Source of the DNA: Nitrospirota bacterium
GTDB taxonomy: Bacteria; Nitrospirota; UBA9217
DNA: 64,000 bases
Reading direction: 5' to 3'
Assembly: GCA_029858565.1 (NCBI GenBank)
Contig: JAOUEV010000009.1
Location: 1 to 64,000, forward strand
Of this stretch, positions 15,821 to 61,938 are shown one piece after another. The position numbers were made by a program, and so were the translations under genes. How positions within the stretch are numbered: position 1 is the stretch's first letter; each line of letters opens with the position of its first letter. The notes under the pieces were generated by a model that was not told where the DNA came from, ran no database searches, and was given only the letters and a program-made list of their open reading frames with translations.

Positions 15821-16228
15821 ATGCGAACGATACTTTCCATACTCATCCTGCTGGCCCTGACAGCGTCGACCGTCCACCGCAATACCGCCTGGAATACCCT
15901 GTTGTCCCTGTGGGAGGATTGCGCCGCAAAGTCCCCGGACAAATCACGGACCCACAATAATCTCGGGAACTGCAACCTGCTGCTCGGAAGGTATTTTCCC
16001 GCGATCGAGGAATACCGGCGGGCAGTTGCGCTTGATCCCGCGAATATGGAAGCCTACTACAATCTGGCGACCACCCTCGATATCGCCGGGCTCTCGGTCG
16101 AGGCGATCGGGCCTTACAGCGTTTTTTGCAGGGAAGCGCCGCGCAATTACGCGGTGCAGCAGCAGCAGGCCTGCGAGCGGTTGCGGGGGCTTATCGCCGG
16201 ATCAGGGAACGCGGGTACGGGGAAATGA
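15821..16228 (+). CDS. Short membrane-anchored TPR protein (paralogue 1)
   Basis: About 135 aa. One N-terminal hydrophobic helix (residues 3-17) is followed by RNTAWNTLLSLWEDCAAKSPDK and about two TPR units (RTHNNLGNCNLLLGRYFPAI, MEAYYNLATTLDIAG). The layout resembles the tail of large multi-pass TPR glycosyltransferase-like proteins, but the multi-pass part is missing. Two relatives with the same TM-R..W..LW...SPDK pattern follow at 16802 and 18606. Its stop overlaps the queH start. Function unknown; partner binding is a guess. Confidence 0.6.
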   Translation: MRTILSILILLALTASTVHRNTAWNTLLSLWEDCAAKSPDKSRTHNNLGNCNLLLGRYFPAIEEYRRAVALDPANMEAYYNLATTLDIAGLSVEAIGPYSVFCREAPRNYAVQQQQACERLRGLIAGSGNAGTGK

Positions 16229-16797
16229 ACCTCCTTCTCCATATGTGCTGCGCACCCTGCGCGATCTACCCTCTGGCGCGTCTCGCGGCTGCGGGCTTCA
16301 GCACGACCGGACTTTTCTACAATCCCAATATTCATCCCTATCAGGAATACGGAAAACGGCTTGAAACGGTCAGGGAACACGCTGTCCGGACCGGTCTGCC
16401 GCTGATCGTCCTGGACCACTACGACCTGGAATCGTTCCTCGCGGTCACCCTGGGCCGGGGCAGCGGAAGATGCGAACAGTGCTATCGCATGCGCCTCGAT
16501 GCCGCTGCGGGGGAAGCGGGCAGGAGGGGATTTGGTCTGTTCTCTTCCACGCTGCTGTACAGCAAATACCAGAACCACGACCTGATCGCCGGTGTTGCGC
16601 GGGAGATGGCCGCGGAGCATAAGGTGGAATTCCTGTACGAGGATTTCCGCGACGGGTGGAAACAGGGCATCGAGGAATCAAAGGCGCTGGGTATGTACCG
16701 CCAGCAGTACTGCGGATGCATCTTCAGCGAGCGGGAGCGGTATGCGCCAGGCTTCCGGAAGAAGTCCGCGAACGCTTCCGCTGAAAGAAAGGGATAG
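16225..16797 (+). CDS. queH: Epoxyqueuosine reductase QueH
   Basis: Fe-S enzyme that reduces epoxyqueuosine to queuosine in tRNA wobble position 34. About 190 aa. The opening LLLHMCCAPCAIYPL carries the adjacent Cys pair and CxxC; CEQCYRMRLD and the C-terminal YRQQYCGCIFSE supply further cluster Cys. FYNPNIHPYQEYGKR is a family signature. It overlaps the preceding TPR gene by four bases. The queuosine pathway is also represented by tgt at 40976. Confidence 0.93.
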   Translation: MNLLLHMCCAPCAIYPLARLAAAGFSTTGLFYNPNIHPYQEYGKRLETVREHAVRTGLPLIVLDHYDLESFLAVTLGRGSGRCEQCYRMRLDAAAGEAGRRGFGLFSSTLLYSKYQNHDLIAGVAREMAAEHKVEFLYEDFRDGWKQGIEESKALGMYRQQYCGCIFSERERYAPGFRKKSANASAERKG

Positions 16798-16801
16798 CCC
16801 C

Positions 16802-17413
16802 GTGTTCTCCTGGTCCCTGCAGACGTTCAGATTCACGCTGATCTCCCTGGTCCTGTGCTTTCTGGGGGTCGCCTCGTTCGCGCGGAACGCGGTGTGGAGT
16901 GACGGTGTGTCGCTGTATGAGGACGTGGTCCGGAAAACCCCGAACAAGTCCCGCGCCTGGGATCATCTGGGCGTCGCCTTCTATCTCCGGTCCGATTATC
17001 CCAATGCGATCGCGGCCTATGACCGCGCCATCAAGCTGGATCCCTATCTGTCGATCAATCCCTACCGCAACCTCGCGCGTCTTTATGTGGATATCGGGGA
17101 ATACGACCGGGCCGTCCAGCTCCTGACCTGGGCAATGTCCATAGATGCGGGCAATTACGAGCTCTATACCACGCGCGGCATGGCATACCACAAGAAGAAC
17201 GAGTTCCCGCAGGCCATAGCGGACTTCTCCCGGGCGCTCGATCTCGAGCGGAACAATCCCGCGATCTATGTTGACCGCGGTCTGGCATACGAAGCGGCAG
17301 GCCGCATCAGAGAGGCTGTCAGGGATTTTGACGAGGCCTGCTCGCGCGGGCGGTCAGCTGCCTGTGAAAAGTCCCGGGCGCTTCGGCCGGACGGAGGCCG
17401 TCCATGGCGGTGA
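16802..17413 (+). CDS. Membrane-anchored TPR protein (paralogue 2)
   Basis: About 203 aa from GTG 16802, which follows AAAGGG and lies four bases after queH. One transmembrane helix (about 9-27), then RNAVWSDGVSLYEDVVRKTP and four TPR units up to about residue 195 (AWDHLGVAFYLRSDYPNAIA, PYRNLARLYVDIGEYDRAV, ELYTTRGMAYHKKNEFPQAI, AIYVDRGLAYEAAGRIREAV). Related to the genes at 15821 and 18606. The upstream open frame to 16592 is a shadow of queH. Probably an envelope scaffold. Confidence 0.65.
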   Translation: MFSWSLQTFRFTLISLVLCFLGVASFARNAVWSDGVSLYEDVVRKTPNKSRAWDHLGVAFYLRSDYPNAIAAYDRAIKLDPYLSINPYRNLARLYVDIGEYDRAVQLLTWAMSIDAGNYELYTTRGMAYHKKNEFPQAIADFSRALDLERNNPAIYVDRGLAYEAAGRIREAVRDFDEACSRGRSAACEKSRALRPDGGRPWR

Positions 17414-18537
17414 TGGCGCCACGTTCTGCCGGGATCCCATTTTCGATTCGCGGACCGGTCAGGCATTGTTCGTTTATCCTTGCTGTCGGAGCGCTGCTCT
17501 TCGCCCTTTCTGCCGAGTGTCTTGGTGCTGCCCGCATCCGCGTGGCCATTGCTGATTCGTCAACACAGGTGGTTCTCCAATCACCAGCAGGGCTCACGAT
17601 CGGCCGCGGGCGGACAGCTAAGGTTCGCCGCACAATCACCCTGACGCCCGCGGACCTGGGGACCGATCCGATCCTCGTCCGCTCCCGGGGCAGCAGCATC
17701 TCGGTGAACGGCAAGAAGTACCGGGGGACGATGGAGGTGCGCAGGAACGGGATAGGCCGGATCCGGGTGATCAACGATCTTGATCTTGAGGACTATCTCA
17801 AGGGCGTTGTGGCGGCCGAGATCCCTCATGAATGGGAAATGGAGGCGCTCAAGGCCCAGGCTGTCGCATCGCGAACCTATGCCTTGCATCAAAAGGAAGC
17901 ATCAGGCGGACGTTCATACCATCTGCTGGCGACGGTAGACAGTCAGATGTACGTGGGGATGGAGGGAGAGCGTCCGCGGGCTGTCCGTGCGGTGGATGAT
18001 ACCCGGGGTGAGGTGCTGCAGTACGAAGGCAGGTTGATCTCGGCCTATTACCATTCCAGCTGCGGAGGACACACCGAGGACGCGCTCGAGCTCTGGGGGA
18101 TCGACGCTTCCTACCTTCGCGGCGTTGATTGTGACTGTCAGCGCATATCGACCTACGGTCCGTGGGAAAGAAAATTTTCCATCCCCGAGGTCATCGGGGC
18201 GCTCCGGCGGGAAGGTTACCCGATCACCGATATCGCGGCGGTGGAGAACGGGGATATCACCCCTGCGGGCCGCGTCAAGCGCGTCCTGTTCAGGTCGTCG
18301 CAGGGGATGATTTCCATCCCTGCGGAATCGCTTCGTTCCATCCTCGGCTATTCCCGATTCCTGAGCGTGTTCATAGAGCCTGAACTGGTTGACCGGGAGA
18401 TCGTGATCTCGGGGCGGGGACGGGGGCACGGCGTCGGGCTATGCCAGTGGGGTGCTCAGGACCTGGCGCTGCAGGGCAAGGAGTACCGGGCCATACTGGA
18501 ACATTATTATCCCGGAACAAAGATCGTACGGCGATAG
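17404..18537 (+). CDS. SpoIID/LytB-domain protein
   Basis: About 377 aa, exported (hydrophobic segment about residues 22-42). The SpoIID domain is clear: INDLDLEDYLKGVVAAEIPH, MEALKAQAVASRTYAL, then YHSSCGGHTEDALELWG, and near the end GRGRGHGVGLCQWGAQDLA. In spore formers SpoIID is a lytic transglycosylase acting on stripped peptidoglycan; in other bacteria such proteins act on cell-wall remodelling or division. It overlaps the preceding TPR gene by ten bases. No sporulation genes are in the window. Confidence 0.85.
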   Translation: MAVMAPRSAGIPFSIRGPVRHCSFILAVGALLFALSAECLGAARIRVAIADSSTQVVLQSPAGLTIGRGRTAKVRRTITLTPADLGTDPILVRSRGSSISVNGKKYRGTMEVRRNGIGRIRVINDLDLEDYLKGVVAAEIPHEWEMEALKAQAVASRTYALHQKEASGGRSYHLLATVDSQMYVGMEGERPRAVRAVDDTRGEVLQYEGRLISAYYHSSCGGHTEDALELWGIDASYLRGVDCDCQRISTYGPWERKFSIPEVIGALRREGYPITDIAAVENGDITPAGRVKRVLFRSSQGMISIPAESLRSILGYSRFLSVFIEPELVDREIVISGRGRGHGVGLCQWGAQDLALQGKEYRAILEHYYPGTKIVRR

Positions 18538-18568
18538 GGCCGGAGGAGCGCTGGGCCGACCATTCTGC

Positions 18569-18598
18569 TTGACAGGCGGCCGTGCCAGCCGATACAAT
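18569..18598 (+). promoter_or_regulatory. Sigma-70-type promoter, apparently driving a leaderless mRNA
   Basis: TTGACA (18569-18574), 18-base spacer, TACAAT (18593-18598). The expected transcription start, seven bases later (18605-18606), falls on the ATG of the next gene. No ribosome-binding site is present. A second promoter with the same geometry is at 46107. Confidence 0.6.
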
Positions 18599-18605
18599 GG
18601 GTTCG

Positions 18606-19409
18606 ATGAAAAAGAAAACTGCAAGAACAAAGACACAGCAAGCGCCATCGCCACAGGTCAAAGCACAAGTGCCTCAGGATCCCTTCCTGGTATTGACAGC
18701 ACTTGCTCTTATGGCGTTGTTCATTGCCTCCCTCACGACTGCAGCACTGCTTCGCAACAGGATCTATGAAACGGGACTGTCGGTCTGGAAAAGCATGGTC
18801 GAAAGTTCGCCTGACAAACGCCGGCCCCATGAGAATTACGGCCAGGCGCTGTCAACAGCCGGCCGTTTGCAGGAGGCCTTGCAGGAGTTCAAGACCGTGC
18901 TCAGTCTGCCTGATGACGGCAGTGTACCTCTCCGGGATGTATATCGCGAGATCGGCGTGGTCTATTTCCGTCTCGGCCTTTTCGACGAGTCCATTACCGC
19001 GTGGAAGACCGGTTTGGTCCATGCTCCGCTCGACGCGGGATTGCTGAACAATATAGCCATTGCCCTGCTCAAGCAGCAGCGCTATGACGAGGCGGTCTCA
19101 CACGCGGAAACAGCCGTGCGGGCGAACAATACGATGCCTGAACCGGTCAATACGCTGGGCGAGATCTACCTTGCCAAAGGGGAGTTTGCGCGGGCAGCTG
19201 AATTCTTCAAGCGGTATATATACCTTCGGCCCGAGGACCCCCGTGGGTCCTGGAATGTAGCGATCGCGCTGGCTCGCGGCGGAAGATATGAAGAGGCCTA
19301 TCAGCATGTCAATCGCTTCCTCGCGTCGGAGCTCGATCCCCGCGAGCGGGCCGGTGCCACTGATCTGCTTAATTTCATCAATGAAAGTATGAATAAAAAG
19401 AGGCACTGA
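18606..19409 (+). CDS. Membrane-anchored TPR protein (paralogue 3)
   Basis: About 267 aa. A Lys-rich cytoplasmic tail (MKKKTARTKTQQ), one transmembrane helix (about 28-50), then RNRIYETGLSVWKSMVESSP and about five TPR units to residue 250. It shares the helix-linker-TPR plan of the genes at 15821 and 16802 but is longer. ATG 18606 fits a leaderless transcript from the promoter at 18569; ATG 18597 overlaps the -10 box. Function unknown. Confidence 0.65.
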   Translation: MKKKTARTKTQQAPSPQVKAQVPQDPFLVLTALALMALFIASLTTAALLRNRIYETGLSVWKSMVESSPDKRRPHENYGQALSTAGRLQEALQEFKTVLSLPDDGSVPLRDVYREIGVVYFRLGLFDESITAWKTGLVHAPLDAGLLNNIAIALLKQQRYDEAVSHAETAVRANNTMPEPVNTLGEIYLAKGEFARAAEFFKRYIYLRPEDPRGSWNVAIALARGGRYEEAYQHVNRFLASELDPRERAGATDLLNFINESMNKKRH

Positions 19410-19843: not shown

Positions 19844-20491
19844 ATGAAGAAGCTTCTAGTAGTAGCAGTTGCAGTATCCATGGTGTTGATGGCGACCTCC
19901 GCGTTCGCACTCATCGCTGGTTCAAAGCACGACCTGTCTTTGACCACCGGTGGATCGAACTCGGTACATGCCGACAACACCACGCTTTCGTCCTGTCAGT
20001 TCTGCCACACCCCGCACAATGGCGTTGCCGTTGCCGGAGCACCGCTCTGGAACCGGACTTTGCCGAACACGACGTACACGTTCTACGCTACCGCAGCAGC
20101 CTCGACCACGGCGTTTGATGGTGGTCTTGGCCCGAACTCGCTCACCTGCCTGAGCTGCCATGATGGTACGGTCAGCGTCGGCGATGTGCTCGTGGGAACC
20201 GATGGTGTTTTCACCGCAAATGCAAATGTTAATGCTGATGGCACGTTGGGTGCAACCCAGTATAATCTCGGCACCGACCTGACGAATGACCACCCGGTCG
20301 GCTTCGTGGTTGACGATCAGAGCGGCAAGGCCGGTCTGACGAATATTGCTGCGATGCAGACTGCTGGTGCCAAGTTCTACACCGGCCGCATGGAGTGCGC
20401 GACCTGCCATGATCCGCATCAGACGACCTATGGCAAGTTCCTTCGCTGGAGCGGTGGTTCCATGTGCTCCGATTGCCACGCCCTGAAGTAG
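19844..20491 (+). CDS. Secreted tetrahaem c-type cytochrome, OmcE-like
   Basis: A 215-aa protein with signal peptide (1-22, cleaved near AFA). Four CxxCH haem sites lie at C51-H55 (CQFCH), C102-H106 (CLSCH), C185-H189 (CATCH) and C208-H212 (CSDCH). Five other His residues (29, 42, 58, 150, 192) are available as distal ligands. The order and flanking text (SKHDLS, CHTPHNG, PLWNR, CLSCHDGT, TNDHPVGF, CHDPH, FLR) closely recall OmcE, the tetrahaem cytochrome that polymerises into extracellular filaments in Geobacter. Start ATG follows GGAGGAAGGAG. It has its own terminator and is followed by NHL, parvulin and beta-barrel genes. Filament formation is an inference. Confidence 0.85.
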   Translation: MKKLLVVAVAVSMVLMATSAFALIAGSKHDLSLTTGGSNSVHADNTTLSSCQFCHTPHNGVAVAGAPLWNRTLPNTTYTFYATAAASTTAFDGGLGPNSLTCLSCHDGTVSVGDVLVGTDGVFTANANVNADGTLGATQYNLGTDLTNDHPVGFVVDDQSGKAGLTNIAAMQTAGAKFYTGRMECATCHDPHQTTYGKFLRWSGGSMCSDCHALK

Positions 20492-20530
20492 GTTTAAGTC
20501 AGGATAGGCATAAGGGAATTGAATCATGAA

Positions 20531-20568
20531 CGAGAGGAGGGGTGAAAGCCCTTCCTCTCGTTTTTTTT
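20531..20568 (+). terminator. Rho-independent terminator after the cytochrome gene
   Basis: Stem CGAGAGGAGGGG (20531-20542) pairs with CCCTTCCTCTCG (20549-20560, one G-U or mismatch) and is followed by eight T. It ends the cytochrome transcript 40 bases after the stop, so the cytochrome may be more abundant than the genes downstream. Confidence 0.9.
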
Positions 20569-20762
20569 CAGGGATCATTGTGCATTCTTCGAAGCATAGC
20601 TCAAAGTGTCCGATCAGTATGTTCTGTTCTTTCCGGGGCGGAAGGTAAGAAGCACATTAATATCTATTTGCAAGATTGATCTTCCTGTCCAGGGGGCAAC
20701 CGGCAATGTTAATATCGTGGTAGTACCAATGTATAAAAGACCATCATTGAGCATCCGATGAG

Positions 20763-20784
20763 CAGTTGATCACAAGATCAACTG
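20763..20784. repeat. Perfect 9-bp inverted repeat CAGTTGATC-ACAA-GATCAACTG
   Basis: Lies in the 20569-20926 spacer between cytochrome terminator and NHL gene. Candidate operator or RNA hairpin; no T-run follows. The rest of this spacer has no convincing gene. Confidence 0.45.
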
Positions 20785-20926
20785 GTGCACATCTTTGAGT
20801 CAGGTAGTACCGCCTGAAATCTCTGTTAGTTCGCGAGTTCGGGGATCACAAGATGATCAGCACTATTCATGCTGGCGGGTTCGCATTAATCAAGTTTATT
20901 CCTTACGGAGATCCTCTAAAATCGCT

Positions 20927-20956
20927 TTGACTTACCCTTGCGCTCCATGGTAAATT
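20927..20956 (+). promoter_or_regulatory. Candidate sigma-70 promoter for the NHL gene
   Basis: TTGACT (20927-20932), 18-base spacer, TAAATT (20951-20956), 50 bases before ATG 21007. It would drive the NHL-parvulin genes apart from the cytochrome. Confidence 0.45.
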
Positions 20957-21006
20957 GGCTCATATCCAGGCAACAAAAATCCGCGACTGATAAGGGGAGT
21001 TCCACT

Positions 21007-22092
21007 ATGATGCGCAATTTCCTGCGTCTACTCGTCATTATGACGCTCGCAATCTCTGTTCTTATCGGATGTGCCTCGACACCAGGGAAAAAAGAGCGGG
21101 TCGTTTTCTGGCCAGATCCTCCCGAGGAACCGAGAATATCCTATATAAAGAGCTACCGGACGGAGACCGATTTTCGCGGTAAGAGCTTCTTTGATATGAT
21201 ATTTGGTGTTTCTAATATAGCGCTTTTCAGCAAGCCCTACGGTGTTTACTCAGACGGTGGTCTGATCTATGCGACTGATACCGCGAGCGGTGGTGTTCTT
21301 GTATATAATCCGCTGGATAAAAAAATGCGGTTTATCATGGGTGACAAGGATAAGCTGCAGCGGCCGGTTGGCGTTGCTACGGCAGCTGACGGCACGGTCT
21401 TTGTTTCAGACGCGAAGCAGTCAAAGATCTTTGGCTATGACAACCAGGGGAAACAGGTCATGACCATCGGCAGCAGGGCCCAGTTGAATAATCCTGCCGG
21501 AATTGCCATTAACAAGGACCTCGGCCGCTTGTATATAACTGATAGCAGGGAACATAAGGTTTTCGTATTCTCTGTTAAGGGGGAGTTCCTTTTCTCCTTT
21601 GGCCAGCAGGGAACGGGGGATGGAGAATTTATTGCACCCACGAACGTTGCCATAGATAGGCGGAACGGCACCGTGTATATCGTGGATACGCTCAATTGCC
21701 GTGTGCAGGTCTTTGACAAGGATGGAAAGTTCCTCAGAAAGTTCGGAGAACTCGGTGATTCGCCTGGTTCTTTCACACGGCCAAAAGGGATCGGTGTGGA
21801 CACGGAAGGTCATGTGTATGTAGCTGATGCCGCATTCGATAACTTCCAGATCTTTGATGAGAATGGCCAGATACTTATGTTCGTGGGATCCGCAGGCCGG
21901 GGGCCGGGTCGCTTTTCCCTTCCTGCAGGCATGTACGTTGATGAGAATGATGTGATCTATGTGGCAGACCAGGTGAACCAGCGGATACAGTTGTTCCAGT
22001 TCCTGAGCGACAAGTGGAAAAAAGACCACCCTGAGGAATATCAAAAGATCCTTGCGCCCAAACAGGAACAGGAAAAATCCGGAGAGAAGTGA
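21007..22092 (+). CDS. NHL-repeat beta-propeller lipoprotein
   Basis: About 361 aa. A lipoprotein signal (MMRNFLRLLVIMTLAISVLIGC, lipobox LIGC) is followed by WPDPPEEPRISYIKSY, a stretch common in this family, and six NHL blades (for example FSKPYGVYSDGGLIYATDT, LNNPAGIAINKDLGRLYITD, FTRPKGIGVDTEGHVYVADA, FSLPAGMYVDENDVIYVADQ). Such propellers accompany multihaem cytochromes in metal reducers and probably scaffold envelope complexes. ATG 21007 has AAGGGGAG upstream; the earlier in-frame ATG at 20938 precedes the promoter. The parvulin gene follows by nine bases. Confidence 0.88.
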   Translation: MMRNFLRLLVIMTLAISVLIGCASTPGKKERVVFWPDPPEEPRISYIKSYRTETDFRGKSFFDMIFGVSNIALFSKPYGVYSDGGLIYATDTASGGVLVYNPLDKKMRFIMGDKDKLQRPVGVATAADGTVFVSDAKQSKIFGYDNQGKQVMTIGSRAQLNNPAGIAINKDLGRLYITDSREHKVFVFSVKGEFLFSFGQQGTGDGEFIAPTNVAIDRRNGTVYIVDTLNCRVQVFDKDGKFLRKFGELGDSPGSFTRPKGIGVDTEGHVYVADAAFDNFQIFDENGQILMFVGSAGRGPGRFSLPAGMYVDENDVIYVADQVNQRIQLFQFLSDKWKKDHPEEYQKILAPKQEQEKSGEK

Positions 22093-22101
22093 TCGGCTAC
22101 A

Positions 22102-23061
22102 ATGGCGGCAAAACGTGTCCTGATAATTGCTGGGCTGACCGGTGTGCTCATTTCGACCATCGTCCATGGTCAGGCCGACATCGCGGCAAGGGTCAACGGA
22201 ACGGTGATACCTCGTGCGCTGCTCGAGGAAGCGGTCGATGAGATAATCCCGCGGGCCACATTTCACGGAGCGTTGTCCGATGACCGGCGGCAGGAGTTGC
22301 GGGAAAAGGCTCTTGAAGCTTTGATCATCGCCGAACTGCAGTATCAGGATGCGCTTGCACTGGGTATGAAAGTGGATAGCGGTCTTGTCAAGGACCAGAT
22401 GAAACGGGTCCGCGACTCATTCCGTTCCTCCAAGGACTATCAGCTCTGGCTGGAAAAGAAACGGATGAGCGAGGACCAGTTGAGGGCTCGTATTGAACGG
22501 AGCCTGCTTGTCCGAACCGCTGTTGAAAAACACGTGGAAGAACCCTCCCGCTTGAGCGAGCAGGAACTGCGGGATTTTTATGACGCCAATCCGGAGCATT
22601 TCAAGGAAACGGAAAGCGTTCATGTCAGGATCATTTCTACCAAGAGTGAGACCAAATTGAACGATATTCTCGGCAAGCTCAAAACGGGTGAGGATTTCGG
22701 TTCAATCGCGTCTCGAATGTCCGATGATGGATACCGCGTGAAAGGCGGGGATATCGGTTTTGTGAAACGCGGTATGATCTACCCCGCACTTGAGGAGCGA
22801 GCCTTTTCATTGAAGCCCGGAAACAGAAGCGATGTTCTCATGGTCGATGGCACGTTCTATCTTGTTAAAGTTGAGGAGTATCGCCCGTCCCGGATTATAC
22901 CGTTCAGCGAGGCGAGAGAAGATATTAAAAAGGACCAGGAGAAGAAGCGCAGGTCTGTGTTACTGGACAAGTGGCTGACGTCTTTGCGCGCAAAGGCGGA
23001 CATTCAGGTAATTATCGGTGATATTGAAACGAAGAATGACAGTAAGAATAAGCTGCATTGA
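22102..23061 (+). CDS. Periplasmic peptidyl-prolyl isomerase, SurA/PpiC (parvulin) type
   Basis: About 319 aa. Signal peptide (about 1-25), a SurA-like N-terminal chaperone helix domain (ARVNGTVIPRALLEEAVDEI through about residue 150), then one parvulin domain (about 170-265: VHVRIISTKSETKLNDILGK, DGYRVKGGDIGFVKRG). It helps outer-membrane proteins and secreted cytochromes fold. Directly after the NHL gene and before the beta-barrel gene, which suggests that these are its clients. Confidence 0.85.
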   Translation: MAAKRVLIIAGLTGVLISTIVHGQADIAARVNGTVIPRALLEEAVDEIIPRATFHGALSDDRRQELREKALEALIIAELQYQDALALGMKVDSGLVKDQMKRVRDSFRSSKDYQLWLEKKRMSEDQLRARIERSLLVRTAVEKHVEEPSRLSEQELRDFYDANPEHFKETESVHVRIISTKSETKLNDILGKLKTGEDFGSIASRMSDDGYRVKGGDIGFVKRGMIYPALEERAFSLKPGNRSDVLMVDGTFYLVKVEEYRPSRIIPFSEAREDIKKDQEKKRRSVLLDKWLTSLRAKADIQVIIGDIETKNDSKNKLH

Positions 23062-23304
23062 TCTGAAAGCATCCTGACGTAGATAAGTATTTCACACTAA
23101 AGAATCACAACTAATTGTTTTATCGTGAAATTTACCATAGTGTAATAATACTCAACTTTAGAGCGATATTGCTCATCACCTCTTTTTTTAATTACCTTTC
23201 TTTCAAACAACACATTGATAATAATAGAATTTAATACGGTTCTTCTGGGCAGGTTTATTGCATAAAAAACATTATCCAGTAGTACGCCTTTTGGAATAAA
23301 ACAA
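23062..23304. other. AT-rich intergenic spacer before the beta-barrel gene
   Basis: A 243-base spacer clearly richer in A and T than its surroundings. It contains no recognisable terminator or promoter of good quality. A minus-strand frame (23097-23357) crosses it but is not supported as a gene. Confidence 0.6.
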
Positions 23305-25212
23305 GTGTTAAATAGTAATAAAATAAAAATAATCCTTTGCTCGGCAATGCTATTCATTCTGGCTATGCCTGCTTCCTCTGCGTATGCCTACTACTACGTA
23401 TCTGGCGTGGTCGATTTTTCTTATACCTCCTATACAACCAAGATCGGAGAAAAGAAAACAACGGATACTTCCTGGACCGAGCATTATGGTGTTACGCTCG
23501 GAACAGCGGTCATAGATCCCCGTTTCCTCCAGTTGACCGCAGGCGTAAGCTATCAGAAGAGCCATTTATACAAGACGCCTGACCAGGATATTATGTCGTA
23601 CAGCATCAATGCTTCCTTCTTTCCAGGCAGGATGATCGCCTGGACACTTTTTGGAGCAAAGAGCATATTGAATGTCCCGAGCACATATAACCTTGCCGGT
23701 TATGATGTGGAGTCTTCGTCTTATGGCGGGACCATGTACTTGAAACTGAGCCTGCTTCGCAGGAAATCAGGCAATAATAATTTTTATAACAACAACAGAA
23801 ATTACAACAACAACAATAATAATAATAACAGGAGGGGTGCGTCGTTTGCTTTGCCGGACCTCACTCTGTCCGCCACGCATGCCGACGTTCAGTCGATGAA
23901 TGTAAACTTTCCCCTTCATGAAGCCCGGGACAATGTGTCAGCCCTGATGCTGTACCAGATCACGCCGTCGATCAATCTGAATGTGGATGGCAGGCGGGAG
24001 GAGTACCAAAATCTTCTGAATAATAGTACCTATACGTTTACCACGCTGGACATGGTATCGAATGTTCACCTTGCCCGGAGCGGTGAACTCCGCCTGACCG
24101 GCCGCACGACTGAGCGGGCCTATGACAATATTGGCGGATCAACAGGCACAATCAGCACCTACCTTGTGGGCGCCCAACTCGACCTGCAGCCGAAAAAGAG
24201 CATCTCCCAGTCTTATCGCACCAACTACGGACGTGTGGAGTCCATGGGTGCAGAGATCATCAGCAAGGATGCACGGGCACAGATCCAATATGCCATGCTT
24301 CGGGAACTCTCATTCAAATCGGCCATTTCCTATGGCGAGACGGACTACCGGCGCGATGCCACAGCTGCTACACCAGCAACACACAGCAATATTAAGACTG
24401 GGGCATTGTCGGTCGGAGCCCACTACCTGAAGGAGTTCAAACCCGAGATGCTCGATCCGTTCATCGTGCGGGCTGGGTATGATTTCGATACCGGATTTAC
24501 GGACATCACCTACGAGTCCGGGCAACAATCCAAGGGGAAATTCTATCAGAATCAGGCAAGTCTTGGTCTGCTCAGTTCCGGTTGGAGGTTCGAGACCCTT
24601 GAGTTGGGGTATAGCTACGTGAGCAGACGGGATAATTCGCTGATGAACCAGAACTTGCTGAGCGAAAACTATTGGCTATCTATGAGCACGCGGCGCATTC
24701 CCAGATCAAGGTTGAACGCATCGGTCAAATATTCCTTAAGTACGACCAATACCGGTCCTTCACCAGATCCTTTTGTGTCCCAGCAGCCTGAAACAAACAG
24801 GGATGCGCGGTTTTTGCAGTATAACGCCAATTTCGAGCATGACATATCCTCGAACCTGAGCTTTATATCCGGGGCGAGCCGGGCAAAGACAAATTCGAAC
24901 TCTGCCTACACCCTGGCGACGGTTCCATTATATGGCGCCTCGGATGTTACTTCAGAAAGGTATTTCGCGTCCTTGAACGGGAATTATCCACTGGGACGGG
25001 CATTGCAGCTGCGCTGCCAGGCTTCCGAGGAATGGTCGAATACCGAGCCCAATGGTTCGCGGTTACAGTCCCATTTGCTCAGTGCGGGTATCGACTGGCG
25101 TCTCAGAAAGATATTTATCAACGCCGATTATCGGTGGCGGCAGGATATGCGTGAGGCGAGCCCAACGATACAACAACAGTATTTCTTTGTCAAGGCGGTA
25201 CGTCCTTTCTAA
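23305..25212 (+). CDS. Outer-membrane beta-barrel protein (porin-like)
   Basis: About 635 aa. Signal peptide (about 1-30, cleaved after AYA), then many alternating amphipathic strands with Tyr/Ser/Thr-rich turns (VSGVVDFSYTSYTT, YGVTLGTAVIDPRFLQLTAG, SLGLLSSGWRFETLELGYSY) and a terminal aromatic residue (VKAVRPF), the usual outer-membrane sorting signal. Family assignment is uncertain: size and context resemble barrels that house or export cytochromes. A poly-Asn stretch encoded at 23771-23830 looks like an exposed loop. GTG 23305 keeps the charged start of the signal peptide but has a weak ribosome-binding site; ATG 23347 is the alternative. Confidence 0.75.
   Translation: MLNSNKIKIILCSAMLFILAMPASSAYAYYYVSGVVDFSYTSYTTKIGEKKTTDTSWTEHYGVTLGTAVIDPRFLQLTAGVSYQKSHLYKTPDQDIMSYSINASFFPGRMIAWTLFGAKSILNVPSTYNLAGYDVESSSYGGTMYLKLSLLRRKSGNNNFYNNNRNYNNNNNNNNRRGASFALPDLTLSATHADVQSMNVNFPLHEARDNVSALMLYQITPSINLNVDGRREEYQNLLNNSTYTFTTLDMVSNVHLARSGELRLTGRTTERAYDNIGGSTGTISTYLVGAQLDLQPKKSISQSYRTNYGRVESMGAEIISKDARAQIQYAMLRELSFKSAISYGETDYRRDATAATPATHSNIKTGALSVGAHYLKEFKPEMLDPFIVRAGYDFDTGFTDITYESGQQSKGKFYQNQASLGLLSSGWRFETLELGYSYVSRRDNSLMNQNLLSENYWLSMSTRRIPRSRLNASVKYSLSTTNTGPSPDPFVSQQPETNRDARFLQYNANFEHDISSNLSFISGASRAKTNSNSAYTLATVPLYGASDVTSERYFASLNGNYPLGRALQLRCQASEEWSNTEPNGSRLQSHLLSAGIDWRLRKIFINADYRWRQDMREASPTIQQQYFFVKAVRPF
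23771..23830 (+). repeat. AAC/AAT trinucleotide repeat within the beta-barrel gene
   Basis: Impure AAT/AAC triplets encode runs of Asn (NNNN then NNNNNNNN with Tyr and Arg breaks). A replication-slippage tract in the reading frame; copy change in whole triplets would only alter loop length. Confidence 0.8.
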
Positions 25213-52472: not shown

Positions 52473-53468
<996 letters not shown>

Positions 53469-53620
53469 GCAAGGAATGCGGAATGCGGAATCCGGAGTGC
53501 GGAATGGTAATGAAAAACAAATTCGCGCAGAGGTAGGAGACGCGGAGAAATGATAGCCTGACAGCTTTGCCGTTAAGGAAAATGAATCAACCCGGCGCTC
53601 TCTGCGTGCTCCGCGCGAGA
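53469..53620. repeat. Repeats between nifH and nifD (family D half plus family A hairpin)
   Basis: 53473-53512 is a tandem of GGAATGCGGAAT-like units. 53523-53549 (CGCAGAGG..GACGCGGAGA) pairs with 53597-53620 (CTCTGCGTGCTCCGCGCGAG). Together they fill the 200-base nifH-nifD spacer; no other signal is seen. Confidence 0.75.
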
Positions 53621-53670
53621 TAGCATCGGATTGTCAATCGCTTCCGGTTCGTCCGGGTTAGGAGAAAATC

Positions 53671-55098
53671 ATGAGCGCAAATATCAAAGACACGCAAAGA
53701 ATGATCGAAGAAGTCCTGGAAGCCTACCCCGAGAAGTCGAAAAAGGACCGGGCCAAGCACCTTGCTGCGAACGATCCCACAGGGCAGTGCAGCGCCTGCC
53801 AGGTGAAGTCGAACATCAAGTCCCGGCCCGGGGTCATGACCGTGCGCGGCTGCGCGTACGCGGGCGCAAAGGGCGTGGTCTGGGGACCGGTGAAGGACCA
53901 GATCACGATCAGTCACGGTCCTGTGGGCTGCGGCCAGTATTCCTGGTGGTCACGCAGGAATTACTATAACGGCCAGACCGGCATAGACGCCTTCGGCACG
54001 ATGCATATCACCACCGACTTTCAGGAGAAGAACATCGTTTATGGCGGAGACAAGGGGCTGGATGCGGCAATCAAGGAGCTGCATGGCCTGTTTCCGCTCG
54101 GCCGGGGTATCGGCATCCTGTCCGAATGCCCTGTAGGCCTTATCGGCGACGATATCGAGGCGGTCTCGAAGCGTGTGGCAAAGGAGATCAATATCCCGAT
54201 CGTTCCGGTGCGGTGCGAAGGGTTCCGCGGTGTTTCCCAGTCCCTGGGCCACCATATCGCGAACGACACGATCCGCGACTACGTGCTTGGCAAGGGTACG
54301 CTTGAAAAGACCACTCCCTACGACGTGAACCTGATCGGCGACTACAATATCGGCGGAGATGCCTGGGCGTCGCGCAAGATCCTCGAAGAGATGGGCTTGC
54401 GCGTGATCGCCCAGTACACCGGCGACTCGACGATCAACGAGATCGGGATAGCGACCAAGGCGAAGCTGAACCTGATCCACTGCTACCGGTCCATGAACTA
54501 CATCTGCCGTCACATGGAAGAGACCTACGGTATACCGTGGATGGAGTTCAACTTCTTCGGACCCACGAAGACGATAGACAGCATCAGGAAGATCGCGGCC
54601 AAGTTCGACGAGAAGATCCAGAAGAACGCCGAGGCGGTGATCGCGAAATATCAGCCGCTTATGGACAAGGTGGTTGAGCAGTATCGGCCGAAGTTGGAAG
54701 GCAAGAAAGTGATGCTCTATGTCGGCGGTCTGCGGCCGCGCCATACCATCGGCGCCTATGAGGATCTTGGTATGGAAGTCGTGGCCTCAGGTTATGAGTT
54801 CGGCCATGGCGACGATTACAAGCGAACCTATCCTGAGATGAAGGAAGGCGCGGTGATCATGGATGACGCGACGCTGTACGAGCTTGAGGAGTTCACCCGA
54901 AGGCTCAAGCCCGACATGGTGGGTTCGGGCATCAAGGAAAAGTATTCCTACCACAAGCTCGGGGTGCCGTTCAGGCAGATGCATTCCTGGGATTATTCGG
55001 GGCCTTATCACGGATTCGACGGGTTCCCGGTCTTCGCGCGGGACATGGATATGACCGTGAACAGCCCGACGTGGGGATTAATCCGAAGGAAGAAGTAG
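53671..55098 (+). CDS. nifD: Nitrogenase MoFe protein alpha chain
   Basis: About 475 aa. P-cluster Cys in RGCAYAG (about 61), [10 protein letters not shown] (about 86) and [12 protein letters not shown] (about 152); FeMo-co ligands Cys in [11 protein letters not shown] (about 271) and His in [16 protein letters not shown] (about 437). HIANDTIRD with [15 protein letters not shown] is present, so this is a true NifD rather than an NflD or AnfD/VnfD look-alike. The short form without long insertions fits Mo nitrogenases of anaerobes. Confidence 0.97.
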
Positions 55099-55146
55099 GA
55101 ACGAAGAATTAAGAAAAGAAGCTCGAAAACAAAAGACAAAGCATCT

Positions 55147-55242
55147 ACCGCTGAGCCGCGGAGACGCAGAGAACGGCGATTATATAGAAGTTTGAAAGAA
55201 ACTAATTCGGTTTTCCTCGGCGCCTCGGCGTCTCTGCGGTGA
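55147..55242. repeat. Hairpin repeat, family A, nifD-nifK spacer
   Basis: The left arm (55147-55172) ACCGCTGAGCCGCGGAGACG.. and the right arm (55215-55241) CTCGGCGCCTCGGCGTCTCT.. pair. The right arm ends 20 bases before the nifK ATG, next to its GGAGG site. Confidence 0.8.
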
Positions 55243-55261
55243 AAAAAGTCTGGAGGATTCT

Positions 55262-56770
55262 ATGAAGATCAGAGACCATAGCGAGTTGTTCAAACAGCAG
55301 GATTACCAGGAGCAATTCCAACGCAAGAAGGAATTCGAGAACGGCTGGCCCGCGGAGAAGGTGAAGGAGGTCTCCGAGTGGACCAAGACCAAGGAGTACC
55401 AGGAGCTGAACTTCAAGCGGGAGAATATCAAGATCAATCCCGCGAAGGCCTGCCAGCCCCTGGGAGCGGTGTTCTGCGCATCAGGATTCGCCGGCGCCAT
55501 GCCTTTTGTGCAGGGAGCGCAGGGATGTGTTGCCTATTTCCGCAGCCATCTTTCCCGCCACTTCAAGGAGCCTTTTGCCGCCATTTCCACGTCCATGACC
55601 GAGGACGCGGCGGTCTTCGGCGGCCTGAACAACATGCTGGAGGGCCTGGAGAACGCCCATACGTTGTATAAACCGAAGATGATAGCGGTCTCCACGACCT
55701 GCATGGCCGAGGTGATCGGCGATGATCTGAACGCCTACATCAAGACCGCGAAGGAGAAAGGCGTCATACCGCAGGACCTTCCGGTGCCTTTCGCGCATAC
55801 CCCGAGCTTTGTGGGCTCCCACATCGTGGGCTACGATAACATGATGAAGGGCATACTAAAGACACTTTCGGCGGGAAAGAAAGGCGAATCAAACGGGAAA
55901 GTGAACATTATCCCCGGATTCGACACCTACACGGGCGATTATCACGAGATCAAGCGTCTGATGGGCTTGATGGGAGTAGAGGCCACGGTGCTTGCCGATG
56001 TGAGCGACACCTTTGATTCTCCCAACACCGGTGAATACAAGCTTTACCCCGGAGGCACGCCGCTCGATGCCGCAATGGACGCGGTGAACGCCGTCGGATC
56101 GATCGCGCTTCAGAGCTATTCCACGGCAAAGACCATGGATTTCATTGAGAAGGAATGGGGCCATCAAAAAAGGCTGTCCATAACCCCTATCGGCGTAAGA
56201 AATACCGATAAGTTCTTTGAAGAACTGAGCAAGCTTACCGGCAAGGCAATGCCGGCTGCAATCGAGGCAGAACGGGGCAGGGCTGTTGATGCTATGGTGG
56301 ATTCGCACCCCTATGTTCACGGCAAACGCTTTGCCCTGGTTGGCGATCCGGACATGCTGCTCGGCATGATCAGCCTGATCATGGAAATGGGCGGCGAGCC
56401 CGTGCATGTGGTCTGCACGAACGGGGACAAGAAATTCGAGGCCGAAGCAAAGGAACTGCTCGCATCGAGTCCCTTTGGCGCCAATGCCACGGTATACGCG
56501 GGCAAGGACATGTGGCACCTCCGGTCGCTCCTGTTCACGGACCCGGTGGACCTTCTGGTCGGGAACTCCTATGCAAAGTTCCTGAAGCAGGATACGGGAA
56601 CGCCCCTGGTGCGGTTCGGTTTCCCGATCTTCGACCGGCACCATCTGCACCGTCAGCCGGTGATCGGGTATCAGGGCGTGATCAATCTTGTGACCATGCT
56701 GGTGAATACGGCATTGGAGGAGCTGGACAAGAAGACCGAAGGGTCGGCGAGCTTTGATGTGATCAGATAA
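55262..56770 (+). CDS. nifK: Nitrogenase MoFe protein beta chain
   Basis: About 502 aa. P-cluster Cys in AKACQPLGAVFCASG (about 64), VQGAQGCVAYFRSHLSRHFK (about 89) and STTCMAEVIGDDL (about 147). C-terminal region with RFGFPIFDRHHLHRQPVIGY and GAINLVTMLVNT-like text (GVINLVTMLVNTALEELDKK). N-terminal extension is that of Mo-type NifK. Forms the alpha2-beta2 tetramer with NifD. Confidence 0.97.
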   Translation: MKIRDHSELFKQQDYQEQFQRKKEFENGWPAEKVKEVSEWTKTKEYQELNFKRENIKINPAKACQPLGAVFCASGFAGAMPFVQGAQGCVAYFRSHLSRHFKEPFAAISTSMTEDAAVFGGLNNMLEGLENAHTLYKPKMIAVSTTCMAEVIGDDLNAYIKTAKEKGVIPQDLPVPFAHTPSFVGSHIVGYDNMMKGILKTLSAGKKGESNGKVNIIPGFDTYTGDYHEIKRLMGLMGVEATVLADVSDTFDSPNTGEYKLYPGGTPLDAAMDAVNAVGSIALQSYSTAKTMDFIEKEWGHQKRLSITPIGVRNTDKFFEELSKLTGKAMPAAIEAERGRAVDAMVDSHPYVHGKRFALVGDPDMLLGMISLIMEMGGEPVHVVCTNGDKKFEAEAKELLASSPFGANATVYAGKDMWHLRSLLFTDPVDLLVGNSYAKFLKQDTGTPLVRFGFPIFDRHHLHRQPVIGYQGVINLVTMLVNTALEELDKKTEGSASFDVIR

Positions 56771-56773
56771 TTC

Positions 56774-56831
56774 GTAGGGGCGGCCCCGCGTGGCCGCCCT
56801 ATGCAGGGCAACCACATGGGGTTGCCCCTAC
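56774..56831. repeat. Hairpin repeat, family B, nifK-nifEN spacer
   Basis: Opens GTAGGGGCGGCCCCGCGTGG and closes GGGGTTGCCCCTAC. Two internal stems as in the copies at 44298 and 59918. It occupies nearly all of the spacer before nifEN. Confidence 0.9.
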
Positions 56832-56843
56832 GGAGAGAATCTT

Positions 56844-59474
56844 ATGACCACGGCAATCGACAAATACACGGCAGACGGATGCGCCACCGACGACAAGCAC
56901 AAGGTCTGTCGTTCCCGGGGCGGAGAATCCTGCGCTTTCGACGGTGCGATGATCGTGCTCCAGCCGATAAAGGACGCTGCACACGTGGTCCACGGTCCTA
57001 TCGCCTGCTGCGGCAATTCATGGGAGGGCAGGGGCACACTGTCGCGTTCCGTGAATGCGGCCGAGTTCCCCCTGGTCCGCATGGGCTTCACGACCGACAT
57101 GACGGAGATTGACATTGTTTACGGAGCTGAAGAAAAGCTCTACCGGGGGATACTGAAGACCGCGGCCCGGGTGAAGCCAAAGGCCCTGTTTGTCCACGCA
57201 ACCTGTGTGAGCGGTCTGATCGGCGAAGACATAAACGCTGTCTGCAAAAGGGCGCAGCTTGAACTCGGCATCCCGGTGATCCCGGTCAATGCTCCGGGTT
57301 TCACCGGTCCCAAGAACCTGGGCAACCGGATCGCCGGGGAGGTGCTCCTGGACCATGTCATCGGTACTGACGAGCCTCCTGTGCAAACGCACTTCGACAT
57401 CAACCTTATCGGCGAATACAATATCGCCGGCGACCTTTGGCTGGTCGAGCCGCTACTGACAGCCGCGGGTATTCATGTCCTGTCAAGGATCACCGGAGAC
57501 GCGACCTTTGAAGAGATCACCTGGGCGCACCGGGCAAAGCTTAATGTGGTGGTCTGCGGCAGAGCGCTGATCAACGTTGCCCGGGAGATGGAACGGAGAT
57601 ATGGCATTCCTTTTGTGGAAGTGTCGTTCTTCGGCAGCACCGAAATTGCCAAGGCACTACGGGCTATCGGCAACAAACTGCAGGAGTCGGGATGCGCGGG
57701 CCTCCTCGATGTCGTAGAAACGCATATTAAGGTCGCTGAAAAGAAGCTCCAGGAAGAACTAAAGCCTTACAGACACTTGCGCGGCACGAAGGCTGTGCTT
57801 TACACGGGCGGAGTAAAAAGCTGGTCGTTCATATCGGCGCTCCGGGACCTGGGTATCGAGGTCGTTGCCGTGGGAACGAAGAAGAGCACGTTCGAGGACG
57901 AGGAGAAAATGAAAGAACTTCTCGGGCCGCAGGCGCCTCTCATTGAGGACGTTACCCCGAAGAACCTGCTGCGGCTCTTGAAGGAACACAAAGCCGATAT
58001 GCTGATCGCGGGAGGAAGGAATCAGTATCTGGCTGTCAAGGAAGGGTATCCTTTTGTTGATGTGAACCAGGAGCGCCATACTGCCTACGCGGGATATGAT
58101 GGACTGGTCAATCTGGCGGAGCAGATCAGCAATGGCATGCGGTTCTACAAAGGCAGTGCGAAGTGCGAAGTGCGGAGTGTGGATTACGGAGCAAAGACGA
58201 CCACGGCCAAAGAACTAAATTCCGCACTCAGAATCAATCCCCTGAAGCATTCTCCCGCCATTGGTGCTGCCATGGCGATCCAGGGCATCCACAACGCGCT
58301 GCCGATTATCCATGGAGCGCAGGGTTGCGGATTTCTCGGCAAGGTATTGTTGACGAAACACTTTCGGGAGCCTGTCGCGCTTGCCACATCCAAGCTTTTT
58401 GTCGAAGACGTGGTGATGGGCAGCGAGGAGCGGTTGATCAATACCGTGAAGGATTTCATGGAAAAGAGTTCGCCTGACCTGATCGCCGTGCTTACCTCGG
58501 GGCTTTCGGAAGTGAAAGGGGACGATGTTCAAGCAGTTGTCAGGAAGCAGGAAGCAGAAGCAGGAAGTAACGGAAGGAATACGTCGATCATTCATGTATC
58601 GACACCGGACTATGACGGAGGACTTGAATCGGGCTACGCAAAGGCAGTAGAGGCAGCTCTGGAAATTGCGGTGCGCGAAGTGCGGAGCGCGGAGTCGGAT
58701 CAAATCAACGTTCTAGCGGGTTCACACCTGACGCCCGGAGATATCAACGAGCTGCGTGACATTGTCGAGTCCTTCGGACTGCGGCCGATCATTCTTCCTG
58801 ATCTGTCGTCGCTCGACGGCAGCAGGCAAGGCTTCTCGGGTCTTTCCAAGGGAGGAACACAGTTAACGGACATCCGGTCCATGGGTTCTTCACTCCGGAC
58901 GTTCGCGATCGGCAGAAGCATGGAGCGGGCGGCCGGAATTCTCCGGGACCGCTACGGTGTCGCCGCTGTTCTTCTTGATTCTGTAGCCGGACTGGAAGAT
59001 ACCGACAGGTTGCTGCATGAACTGAGCCTTGTCAGCGGCCGTCGGATACCGGAACGTTACCAGCGGCAGCGCAGGATGCTTGTGGACGGAGTGCGGGACG
59101 GACAGTTCTATTTCGGATCAAAGAGGGTCTGCCTGGCGCTGGAACCGGATCACTCCTTGCAGATGTCCCGGTGGCTCAGGGAGACAGGGGCGACAACGGC
59201 ATTGAGCATCATTCCAACACTGAGCAACGCAGCGGATCACATCGAAGCGGAGCATGTGGAGATCGGAGACCTCTTCTCGATCCAGGGAAAATACGATCTG
59301 ATCATCGCGAATTCTCATGCTCAGGAAAGCGCGGAGCAAATGAGGATCCCGCTCTATGAAGCGGGGTTTCCAGTCTTTAAATCGCTGGGATATGCGCAAA
59401 AGGCGATGGTCGGGTATCGAGGAGCACTTGCCATGGTGAATGAGATCGGGAGTTTGTTAATGCGGGGGCATTAA
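56844..59474 (+). CDS. nifEN: Fused nitrogenase cofactor scaffold NifE-NifN
   Basis: About 876 aa. Residues 1-437 are NifE (RGGESCAFDGAMIVLQPIKD, HGPIACCGNSWEGRGT, HATCVSGLIGEDINAVCKRA, NLIGEYNIAGDLWLVEPLL). Residues about 465-876 are NifN (INPLKHSPAIGAAMAIQGIH, HGAQGCGFLGKVLLTKHFRE, VLTSGLSEVKGDDVQAVVRK). The linker (GSAKCEVRSVDYGAKTT and on) is encoded by a family D hairpin. Two more tandem inserts lie in the NifN half (58545-58585 and 58670-58705). NifEN normally is an alpha2-beta2 scaffold where NifB-co matures to FeMo-co. ATG 56844 follows GGAG. Confidence 0.93.
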   Translation: MTTAIDKYTADGCATDDKHKVCRSRGGESCAFDGAMIVLQPIKDAAHVVHGPIACCGNSWEGRGTLSRSVNAAEFPLVRMGFTTDMTEIDIVYGAEEKLYRGILKTAARVKPKALFVHATCVSGLIGEDINAVCKRAQLELGIPVIPVNAPGFTGPKNLGNRIAGEVLLDHVIGTDEPPVQTHFDINLIGEYNIAGDLWLVEPLLTAAGIHVLSRITGDATFEEITWAHRAKLNVVVCGRALINVAREMERRYGIPFVEVSFFGSTEIAKALRAIGNKLQESGCAGLLDVVETHIKVAEKKLQEELKPYRHLRGTKAVLYTGGVKSWSFISALRDLGIEVVAVGTKKSTFEDEEKMKELLGPQAPLIEDVTPKNLLRLLKEHKADMLIAGGRNQYLAVKEGYPFVDVNQERHTAYAGYDGLVNLAEQISNGMRFYKGSAKCEVRSVDYGAKTTTAKELNSALRINPLKHSPAIGAAMAIQGIHNALPIIHGAQGCGFLGKVLLTKHFREPVALATSKLFVEDVVMGSEERLINTVKDFMEKSSPDLIAVLTSGLSEVKGDDVQAVVRKQEAEAGSNGRNTSIIHVSTPDYDGGLESGYAKAVEAALEIAVREVRSAESDQINVLAGSHLTPGDINELRDIVESFGLRPIILPDLSSLDGSRQGFSGLSKGGTQLTDIRSMGSSLRTFAIGRSMERAAGILRDRYGVAAVLLDSVAGLEDTDRLLHELSLVSGRRIPERYQRQRRMLVDGVRDGQFYFGSKRVCLALEPDHSLQMSRWLRETGATTALSIIPTLSNAADHIEAEHVEIGDLFSIQGKYDLIIANSHAQESAEQMRIPLYEAGFPVFKSLGYAQKAMVGYRGALAMVNEIGSLLMRGH
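58155..58235. repeat. Family D hairpin read through as the NifE-NifN linker
   Basis: The left arm has GCGAAGTGCGAAGTGCGGAG (58156-58180) and the right arm ATTCCGCACTCAGAATC (58220-58236). The arms are complementary (GAGTGCGGAAT). The whole element has no stop in the nifEN frame. The same strings occur in spacers at 53469 and 60325. Confidence 0.7.
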
Positions 59475-59509
59475 GAGACCGGAAGGGGTAAGGGGGAAGG
59501 AGGAACGTC

Positions 59510-59902
59510 ATGAAGGTCGCATTCGCTACATCCGACGGGAAAAATGTTGATGAACATTTCGGCAGAGCAGGGAAGTTTGCGGTCTATGAGATGAACGCAA
59601 GCGGTTTCCTGTATCTGGAAACGAGGACCTTTGCCGAAGGACTGGACCTGGCAGTCACATCCACAAAGGACAAGGGGCAGGCGCATGAAGACGCTGTGCA
59701 GGCAAAGGTGGAAAAACTCGCCGACTGCAGGCTGATCTATCTGACGGAGATCGGCGGACCGTCAGCCGCGCGTCTGGTCCGTAAGGGCATCATGCCGATG
59801 AAGGTCAAGGAATCCGGGCCCATTGAGATAGAGCTTGACCGTCTCTCGACACTCATAAGGACATCGCCGCCGCCGTGGTTGAAAAAGTCGATAAACAATT
59901 AA
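59510..59902 (+). CDS. nifX: NifX-family FeMo-cofactor carrier
   Basis: About 130 aa, dinitrogenase iron-molybdenum cofactor biosynthesis fold. KVAFATSDGKNVDEHFGRAG is the opening signature; CRLIYLTEIGGPSAARLVRKGIMP is also typical. Binds NifB-co or VK-cluster between NifB, NifEN and the apo-enzyme. It follows nifEN in the same operon. Confidence 0.9.
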   Translation: MKVAFATSDGKNVDEHFGRAGKFAVYEMNASGFLYLETRTFAEGLDLAVTSTKDKGQAHEDAVQAKVEKLADCRLIYLTEIGGPSAARLVRKGIMPMKVKESGPIEIELDRLSTLIRTSPPPWLKKSINN

Positions 59903-59917
59903 GGGAATATCGCGAAT

Positions 59918-59974
59918 TTAGGGGCGGTCCTGCGTGGCCGCCCGGGGAGGGCAACCACATAGGGTTGCCCCTAC
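59918..59974. repeat. Hairpin repeat, family B, nifX-nifI1 spacer
   Basis: TTAGGGGCGG..TGGCCGCCC and GGGCAACC..GGGTTGCCCCTA form the same two-stem element as at 44298 and 56774. The terminal G is replaced by T. Confidence 0.85.
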
Positions 59975-60004
59975 TTAATATCTGAGGAACGAAGGAGGCA
60001 TGCA

Positions 60005-60322
60005 ATGAAGATGATTCGAGCTTTTATCAGGCCGGAAAAAGAGCAGGAAGTGGTGTTGGCGCTGGATGGTGCGGGCTTCCCCTCGCTCACCAAGATGCCG
60101 GTGTTCGGAAGGGGAAAGCAAAAGGGGCTCACCGTCGGGCCGGTCCATTACGACGAGTTGCCCAAGACGCTTATTATGACCGTTGTCGAGGACAAGGACA
60201 CCGACAAGGTCATTAAAGTGATCCAGGACAAGGCAAAGACCGGTTTCATCGGCGACGGCAAGATCTTTGTCAGCCCGGTGGAGACCGCTTTTACGGTCAG
60301 AACCGGCGAAGCAGTGCTGTAA
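60005..60322 (+). CDS. nifI1: PII-family nitrogenase regulator NifI1
   Basis: About 105 aa. PII fold with FGRGKQKGLTVGPVHYDELPKT as the NifI1-type T-loop and TGFIGDGKIFVSPVETAFTVRTGE as the C-terminal signature. With NifI2 it binds NifDK and blocks Fe-protein docking when 2-oxoglutarate is low. A second Met two codons in is also possible. Confidence 0.93.
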   Translation: MKMIRAFIRPEKEQEVVLALDGAGFPSLTKMPVFGRGKQKGLTVGPVHYDELPKTLIMTVVEDKDTDKVIKVIQDKAKTGFIGDGKIFVSPVETAFTVRTGEAVL

Positions 60323-60324
60323 GA

Positions 60325-60356
60325 AGTGTGGAATGCGAAGTGCGGGGTAAGAAGCG
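60325..60356. repeat. Family D half repeat between nifI1 and nifI2
   Basis: GTGTGGAATGCGAAGTGCGGGG: degenerate GCGGAAT/GCGAAGT units, like the strings in the nifEN linker. Confidence 0.5.
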
Positions 60357-60406
60357 AATCCATCACCGCTCTTCTGCGGCAATATATTTAATTTGGAGGT
60401 TTCAAT

Positions 60407-60823: not shown

Positions 60824-60830
60824 AGAACGT

Positions 60831-60882
60831 GGCCGGTGGCCCGTAGCCTGGAAGTGCGAATTCCCGGCTCCCGGCTACCGGA
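60831..60882. repeat. Imperfect hairpin (GGCCGGTGGCCCGTAGCC / GGCTCCCGGCTACCGG)
   Basis: Arms at 60831-60848 and 60866-60882 are roughly complementary, flanking a short GAAGTGCGAATTC core. It sits between nifI2 and the ferredoxin and resembles the other tandem-unit hairpins. Confidence 0.5.
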
Positions 60883-60908
60883 CCCTGGTCCCATTTTGGG
60901 AGGTTGTT

Positions 60909-61187: not shown

Positions 61188-61194
61188 GCTGCCA

Positions 61195-61713: not shown

Positions 61714-61884
61714 CCGTGAGCCGGATATTCAAGACGAACGCCTGACCTGACCATGAGTTGCCTAAGAGAACGATGAGCCTGAATCTCTCCATGATCTGCT
61801 TAATCCTTGAGCAGGTGCTTCAACCCATGCATAAACATCCCCGCAGCTGGATCGCTATCCGCTTGTAAATCCGCATCAATGATC

Positions 61885-61900: not shown

Positions 61901-61938
61901 ATGTAGCTCATCAAGATAAGTGAATCGAGGTGACGACC

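Follow-up and report, generated by a model that had tools for sequence, protein, structure and literature searches.

We analysed a 64,000-nucleotide stretch (hereafter the window) of a Nitrospirota bacterium of the lineage UBA9217, namely positions 1 to 64,000 of contig JAOUEV010000009.1 in GCA_029858565.1, an assembly of 144 contigs and 3.9 Mb. Four genes in this window encode a small secreted cytochrome, a lipoprotein with an NHL propeller, a peptidyl-prolyl isomerase (PPIase) and a large outer-membrane beta-barrel, and a strong intrinsic terminator lies directly behind the first of them (Table 1). The original prediction had described these genes as a candidate extracellular filament locus of the OmcE type in a diazotroph. 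A check of the open reading frames (ORFs) confirmed the coordinates, and Pfam matches, together with the predicted strands of the barrel, bore out the three genes said to follow the cytochrome. The cytochrome is, as claimed, secreted and carries four CXXCH motifs: a signal peptide and the motifs CQFCH, CLSCH, CATCH and CSDCH are present, as are the landmarks SKHDLS, PLWNR, CLSCHDGT, TNDHP, CHDPH and FLR in the order proposed.

Table 1. Features of the four-gene locus, in window coordinates
Feature	Position	Strand	Basis
OmcE-like secreted tetrahaem cytochrome, candidate filament subunit, 215 aa	19844..20491	+	phmmer, Foldseek, invariant distal His
Strong intrinsic terminator directly 3' of the cytochrome gene	20528..20563	+	16-pair stem and U-run, -27.2 kcal/mol
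NHL six-bladed propeller lipoprotein	21007..22092	+	Pfam NHL E 8e-32; signal peptide, lipobox LIGC
Periplasmic parvulin/SurA-type PPIase	22102..23061	+	Pfam Rotamase_2 E 3e-17, SurA_N_3 E 6e-13
Outer-membrane beta-barrel, 635 aa, unnamed family	23305..25212	+	AlphaFold2, ~26 long strands; C-terminal RPF

The OmcE-type identity of the cytochrome was supported by its sequence, by its predicted fold and by the invariance of all eight haem-ligand histidines. In a phmmer search against all chains of the PDB, residues 7-212 of the window protein matched OmcE (7tfs; E 1.8e-23), and chain N of 9yuq, a putative multihaem cytochrome c, matched over the full length (E 2.5e-22); the next match had an E-value of 0.06. 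The protein is approximately 34-36% identical to OmcE and matches a profile that contains OmcE itself with an E-value of 1.1e-74. An AlphaFold2 model built from 40 relatives, with haems absent, reached a pLDDT of 60 and a pTM of 0.53, and Foldseek returned 7tfs as the top and only significant PDB structure for this low-confidence model (E 6e-6, TM-score 0.49/0.52). Judged by these comparisons of sequence, the window cytochrome is homologous to OmcE, and the landmarks are not there by chance.

Alignments of 10, 51 and approximately 148 sequences, from which we read ligand conservation, showed the histidines of the four CXXCH motifs, and exactly four more, as invariant or nearly invariant. The latter, H29 (KHDLS), H58 (TPH), H150 (NDHP) and H192 (CHDPH), are shared by each of the 90 stand-alone relatives in the comparison and by 98-100% of 58 OmcE-like domains that are fused to further haem-binding sequence (described below). 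The window protein has a fifth extra histidine, H42, which is not kept in relatives. Ligation of a haem by a histidine from the next subunit is common to OmcE and OmcS (PMC9473688); in OmcE, the neighbouring subunit supplies one of the haem ligands (PMC9473688, PMC12954529). The four haems of the window cytochrome and its four conserved distal histidines would fit bis-histidine ligation of the OmcE type. A cytochrome encoded at the same ruv-linked site in a genome of the same family (L037 18675-19316) branches together with OmcE (support 0.93) and not with the window protein; thus, the subunit at one site has either diverged strongly or been replaced.

The four-gene order, which the original prediction expected to recur in related genomes, is kept both within the family and in another phylum. 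The cytochrome, NHL, PPIase and barrel genes are contiguous, as in the window, in two loci of the same family (L048, from the same genus, and L039), and the identical order was found in four loci of Campylobacterota (L061, L062, L072 and L112). Other Nitrospirota showed variant orders (L056, L057, L060, L128, L168 and L170). In one further locus of the family (L044), glycosyltransferase, radical SAM, methyltransferase and TPR genes break the order, and in three others (L037, L041 and L165) contig ends cut it short, with NHL/PPIase/barrel or PPIase/barrel fragments present on other contigs (L161 and L163). NHL orthologues at the equivalent place are 40-54% identical, and PPIase orthologues 39-47%. 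A scan of named genomes with the cytochrome alone yielded more than 500 relatives. Among loci of at least 15 kb that were fetched by the cytochrome alone (n = 45), an NHL gene of this family was present in 43, a member of the barrel family in 36 and the PPIase in 13; 12 loci had all three. Geobacter sulfurreducens was not among the genomes that the scan returned, and a Geobacteraceae metagenome-assembled genome (L096; 9-haem, 8-haem, NHL, OmcE-like, NHL, barrel) stood in for it among these relatives. In 18 loci from Bacteroidota and other groups (for example, L076, L083 and L118), the gene between NHL and barrel encodes not the PPIase but a small cytochrome, often with five haems.

The NHL profile matched at only four places in the window's own genome: the window, contigs C106 and C41, and a pair of genes on contig C76. 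This genome has three clear OmcE-like cytochromes, in the window and on C106 and C41, and each of them lies beside an NHL gene. On C41 (L051 9591-19852), the second OmcE-like tetrahaem protein is followed by a 928-residue NHL protein and by cytochromes with 23 and 12 haems, and similar clusters occur in L036 and L038. At the end of C76 (L177 9160-12531), a five-haem protein, two NHL genes and two Kup-like potassium transporters stand in a row; this NHL pair is the only member of the family in the genome with no OmcE-like cytochrome in view, and the contig ends there. NHL and OmcE-like genes also occur on a 3.8-kb contig (L089) that was binned as a Desulfurococcales archaeon and is probably mis-binned.

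The barrel received no Pfam or NCBIfam assignment, and a sequence search of the PDB gave no match beyond chance. Its AlphaFold2 model (pLDDT 74.5, pTM 0.65) is the source of the strand count in Table 1. Iterated profiles recovered approximately 80 ORFs of the barrel family from the fetched loci, most of them ending in the R-x-F type of C terminus of outer-membrane barrels. A profile built from 38 of these ORFs matched the window gene alone in the whole genome and is therefore not a generic barrel detector. Among 296 Nitrospirota genomes, the barrel family was present in 80; an OmcE-like cytochrome was encoded in 78 of these 80, compared with 24 of the 216 without the barrel (Fisher p 5e-47, uncorrected for relatedness). 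At least 46 of the 61 best barrel matches lay within 10 kb of a listed cytochrome match.

The terminator is also conserved. In 6/6 syntenic loci of the family, a hairpin (-17.6 to -27.2 kcal/mol) with a U-run behind it starts 47-71 nt past the cytochrome stop codon, and similar structures were found in L056, L057 and L072. As the terminator is kept in all six family loci, we rejected the notion that it is local noise. For Geobacter, the prediction is likewise that omcE, which lies beside gsu0615-0617, is transcribed on its own (PMC1829397). The original prediction took a private terminator to mean that the subunit is made in excess; the terminator exists and is conserved, and its conservation favours excess production without proving it.

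We consider it somewhat probable that these genes form a dedicated biogenesis locus for an extracellular cytochrome filament of the OmcE type. The tetrahaem protein would be secreted, loaded with four haems and polymerised outside the cell, where, as in OmcE, one of its four conserved distal histidines would reach into the next subunit and bind a haem there, so that the stacked haems run on as an unbroken chain. Periplasmic folding of this mostly loop-structured subunit may be aided by the PPIase, the NHL lipoprotein may be an outer-membrane scaffold for assembly or docking, and the large barrel would pass the subunit or the growing filament across that membrane. The terminator after the first gene would hold subunit mRNA above helper mRNA. 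That the protein polymerises, and what the three helpers do, we infer.

Several points weigh against this interpretation. In a FastTree phylogeny, the window cytochrome groups with other Nitrospirota tetrahaem proteins and not directly with OmcE, and the predicted monomer is of low confidence. Of the nanowire system originally proposed, the OmcE-type identity, gene order, terminator and nif genes held up; polymerisation, a histidine ligand that crosses the subunit interface and the barrel as exit pore are what we infer. The literature that we found holds no demonstration that OmcE secretion in Geobacter needs these genes, and the physiological importance of cytochrome filaments is disputed (PMC11077965). 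Finally, the barrel could serve electron transfer rather than export, as discussed below.

The strongest competing explanation, which we regard as possible but unlikely, is that the tetrahaem protein is indeed a filament subunit, exported by other means, whereas the barrel ensheathes an electron conduit of the porin-cytochrome type across the outer membrane, in which a multihaem protein feeds the filament. In full modules, this multihaem protein would be a 10-11-haem fusion. In 24 loci, the barrel is directly followed by a second NHL gene and then by such a fusion, and most of the 10-11-haem proteins consist of a complete N-terminal OmcE-like domain (four haems and a KH[ND]L motif) followed by 6-7 haems. 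The FastTree phylogeny has a group of 66 members (support 0.975) that includes the 58 fused domains; OmcE, 9yuq and most of the stand-alone subunits lie elsewhere in the tree. The window locus has four genes only, with neither a second NHL gene nor a fusion, and its barrel has no adjacent multihaem partner except the tetrahaem protein; in the same genome, an NHL gene and a 10-haem fusion (L050 4968-7046) lie on contig C106, and 57 other such proteins were found in the fetched loci.

Among the listed fold matches of the barrel, MtrB (6r2q_B) ranked second by E-value and had the highest TM-score (0.42/0.41), and a family search found no MtrB/PioB-family gene in the window's own genome, so another conduit would be needed. 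However, the match is weak and generic, as TonB receptors, LptD and the FimD usher are among the large barrels that match too, and the window barrel has no sequence relationship to MtrB or PioB, for which reason we rejected membership in that family. Furthermore, the position of the PPIase gene directly before the barrel suggests a role in biogenesis. The 10-11-haem fusion is a candidate anchor or cap for the filament. A possible but unlikely extension is that the barrel family, widespread as it is, serves OmcE-like cytochromes exclusively; the fusion would anchor the filament, its subunit-like domain docking onto the end of the tetrahaem polymer through the same cross-subunit histidine while its other 6-7 haems led through the barrel to the periplasm, making the export pore also the electrical feed-through.

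A less probable alternative is that the tetrahaem protein stays unpolymerised, as a carrier that is soluble or loosely bound to the cell surface, and that the helpers mature cytochromes in general. Homology is no proof of polymerisation, and the identity to OmcE is modest, which leaves room for this explanation. By contrast, the co-occurrence data make the helpers specific to OmcE-like cytochromes, the cytochrome has the profile and the ligands of OmcE, and the two solved relatives are the OmcE filament itself and 9yuq, an entry containing 16 cytochrome chains. That a periplasmic cytochrome gene lies next to unrelated envelope genes by chance is scarcely credible: a gap of approximately 0.5 kb and the terminator do part the first gene from the other three, but an order shared with other genera and another phylum, and an OmcE-like cytochrome in nearly every barrel-bearing Nitrospirota genome, contradict it.

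Genes related to glycosylation lie inside or beside the locus in relatives, but not in the window, and encode O-antigen-ligase-like proteins and glycosyltransferases. In four genomes of another Nitrospirota family (L167, L168, L170 and L171), a membrane-protein gene stands between the cytochrome and PPIase genes; the one of the four that we scanned (L168 5694-7628) encodes a Wzy_C O-antigen-ligase-like protein with TPRs. This protein is possibly an enzyme of glycosyl transfer to the filament subunit, which would fit the reported glycosylation of OmcE filaments (PMC9473688).

Elsewhere in the window, nifH, nifD, nifK, a nifEN fusion and a nifB-like gene, the last of which scores just under the NifB cut-off, occupy positions 52482-62820. 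The label diazotroph is sound as a statement of gene content. Just upstream of the cytochrome, positions 15821-19409 hold a SpoIID gene surrounded by genes for three short TPR proteins (15821-16228, inside 16592-17413, and 18603-19409), each with an N-terminal membrane stretch, and this region is partly kept upstream of the cytochrome in relatives.

In summary, the finding is real and the nanowire reading is largely right as a claim of homology, although it does not describe a new kind of system. This analysis adds the tests of synteny and co-occurrence, the finding that the terminator is conserved, and the fusions with an OmcE domain as testable anchor candidates. Folding, export and wiring to the cell have been described as unresolved for cytochrome filaments even in Geobacter (PMC12307469). 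The locus offers a compact case of four genes, a conserved barrel among them, that lends itself to deletion or to expression as one unit, and because the module recurs in Campylobacterota and elsewhere, experiments in a tractable host are possible. It extends OmcE-type potential to a nif-bearing Nitrospirota lineage, and three companion genes that accompany such cytochromes in many bacterial phyla make the exit of filaments from the cell easier to test.

Among known systems, the closest to the window protein is OmcE of G. sulfurreducens (GSU0618), with which it shares four CXXCH motifs, four distal histidines, motif order, full-length alignment and predicted fold; unlike OmcE, which is a solved filament, the window protein belongs to another phylum, is known here from its sequence and has its place in the tree among Nitrospirota. 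Chain N of 9yuq is similar to it over the full length. MtrAB and PioAB conduits combine a porin family with an adjacent periplasmic decahaem protein, and the window barrel fits neither part, having no family match and no decahaem gene beside it. The osc operon of Geobacter (GSU2493-GSU2504) resembles the window locus in joining a filament cytochrome to genes proposed for its folding and secretion; by contrast, its subunit is the hexahaem OmcS, which has no sequence similarity to the window protein, it includes a 26-haem cytochrome, and the likeness drawn here is one of gene content. In clusters of the osc type, a propeller, a PPIase and an outer-membrane barrel are encoded with the filament cytochrome. 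The window has a set of this type, encoding all three with an OmcE-like cytochrome. An operon with a six-bladed propeller, a prolyl isomerase and cytochromes had already been noted in SEEP-SRB1 (Skennerton 2017; PMC5539420); its core is similar, but its cytochromes have 16 and 26 haems and no OmcE-like subunit was reported in that core. The osc genes beside omcS have been assigned to OmcS folding and secretion (Shen 2025, as cited in PMC12977616 and PMC13194489), and they are a precedent for folding and secretion genes that accompany a filament cytochrome. The oet cluster, probably the same as or overlapping with osc, was read differently, with OetABI proposed as a porin-cytochrome conduit (Murali 2023; PMC10553843). 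The ambiguity between conduit and export at the window locus thus mirrors the literature on the analogous-looking Geobacter cluster.

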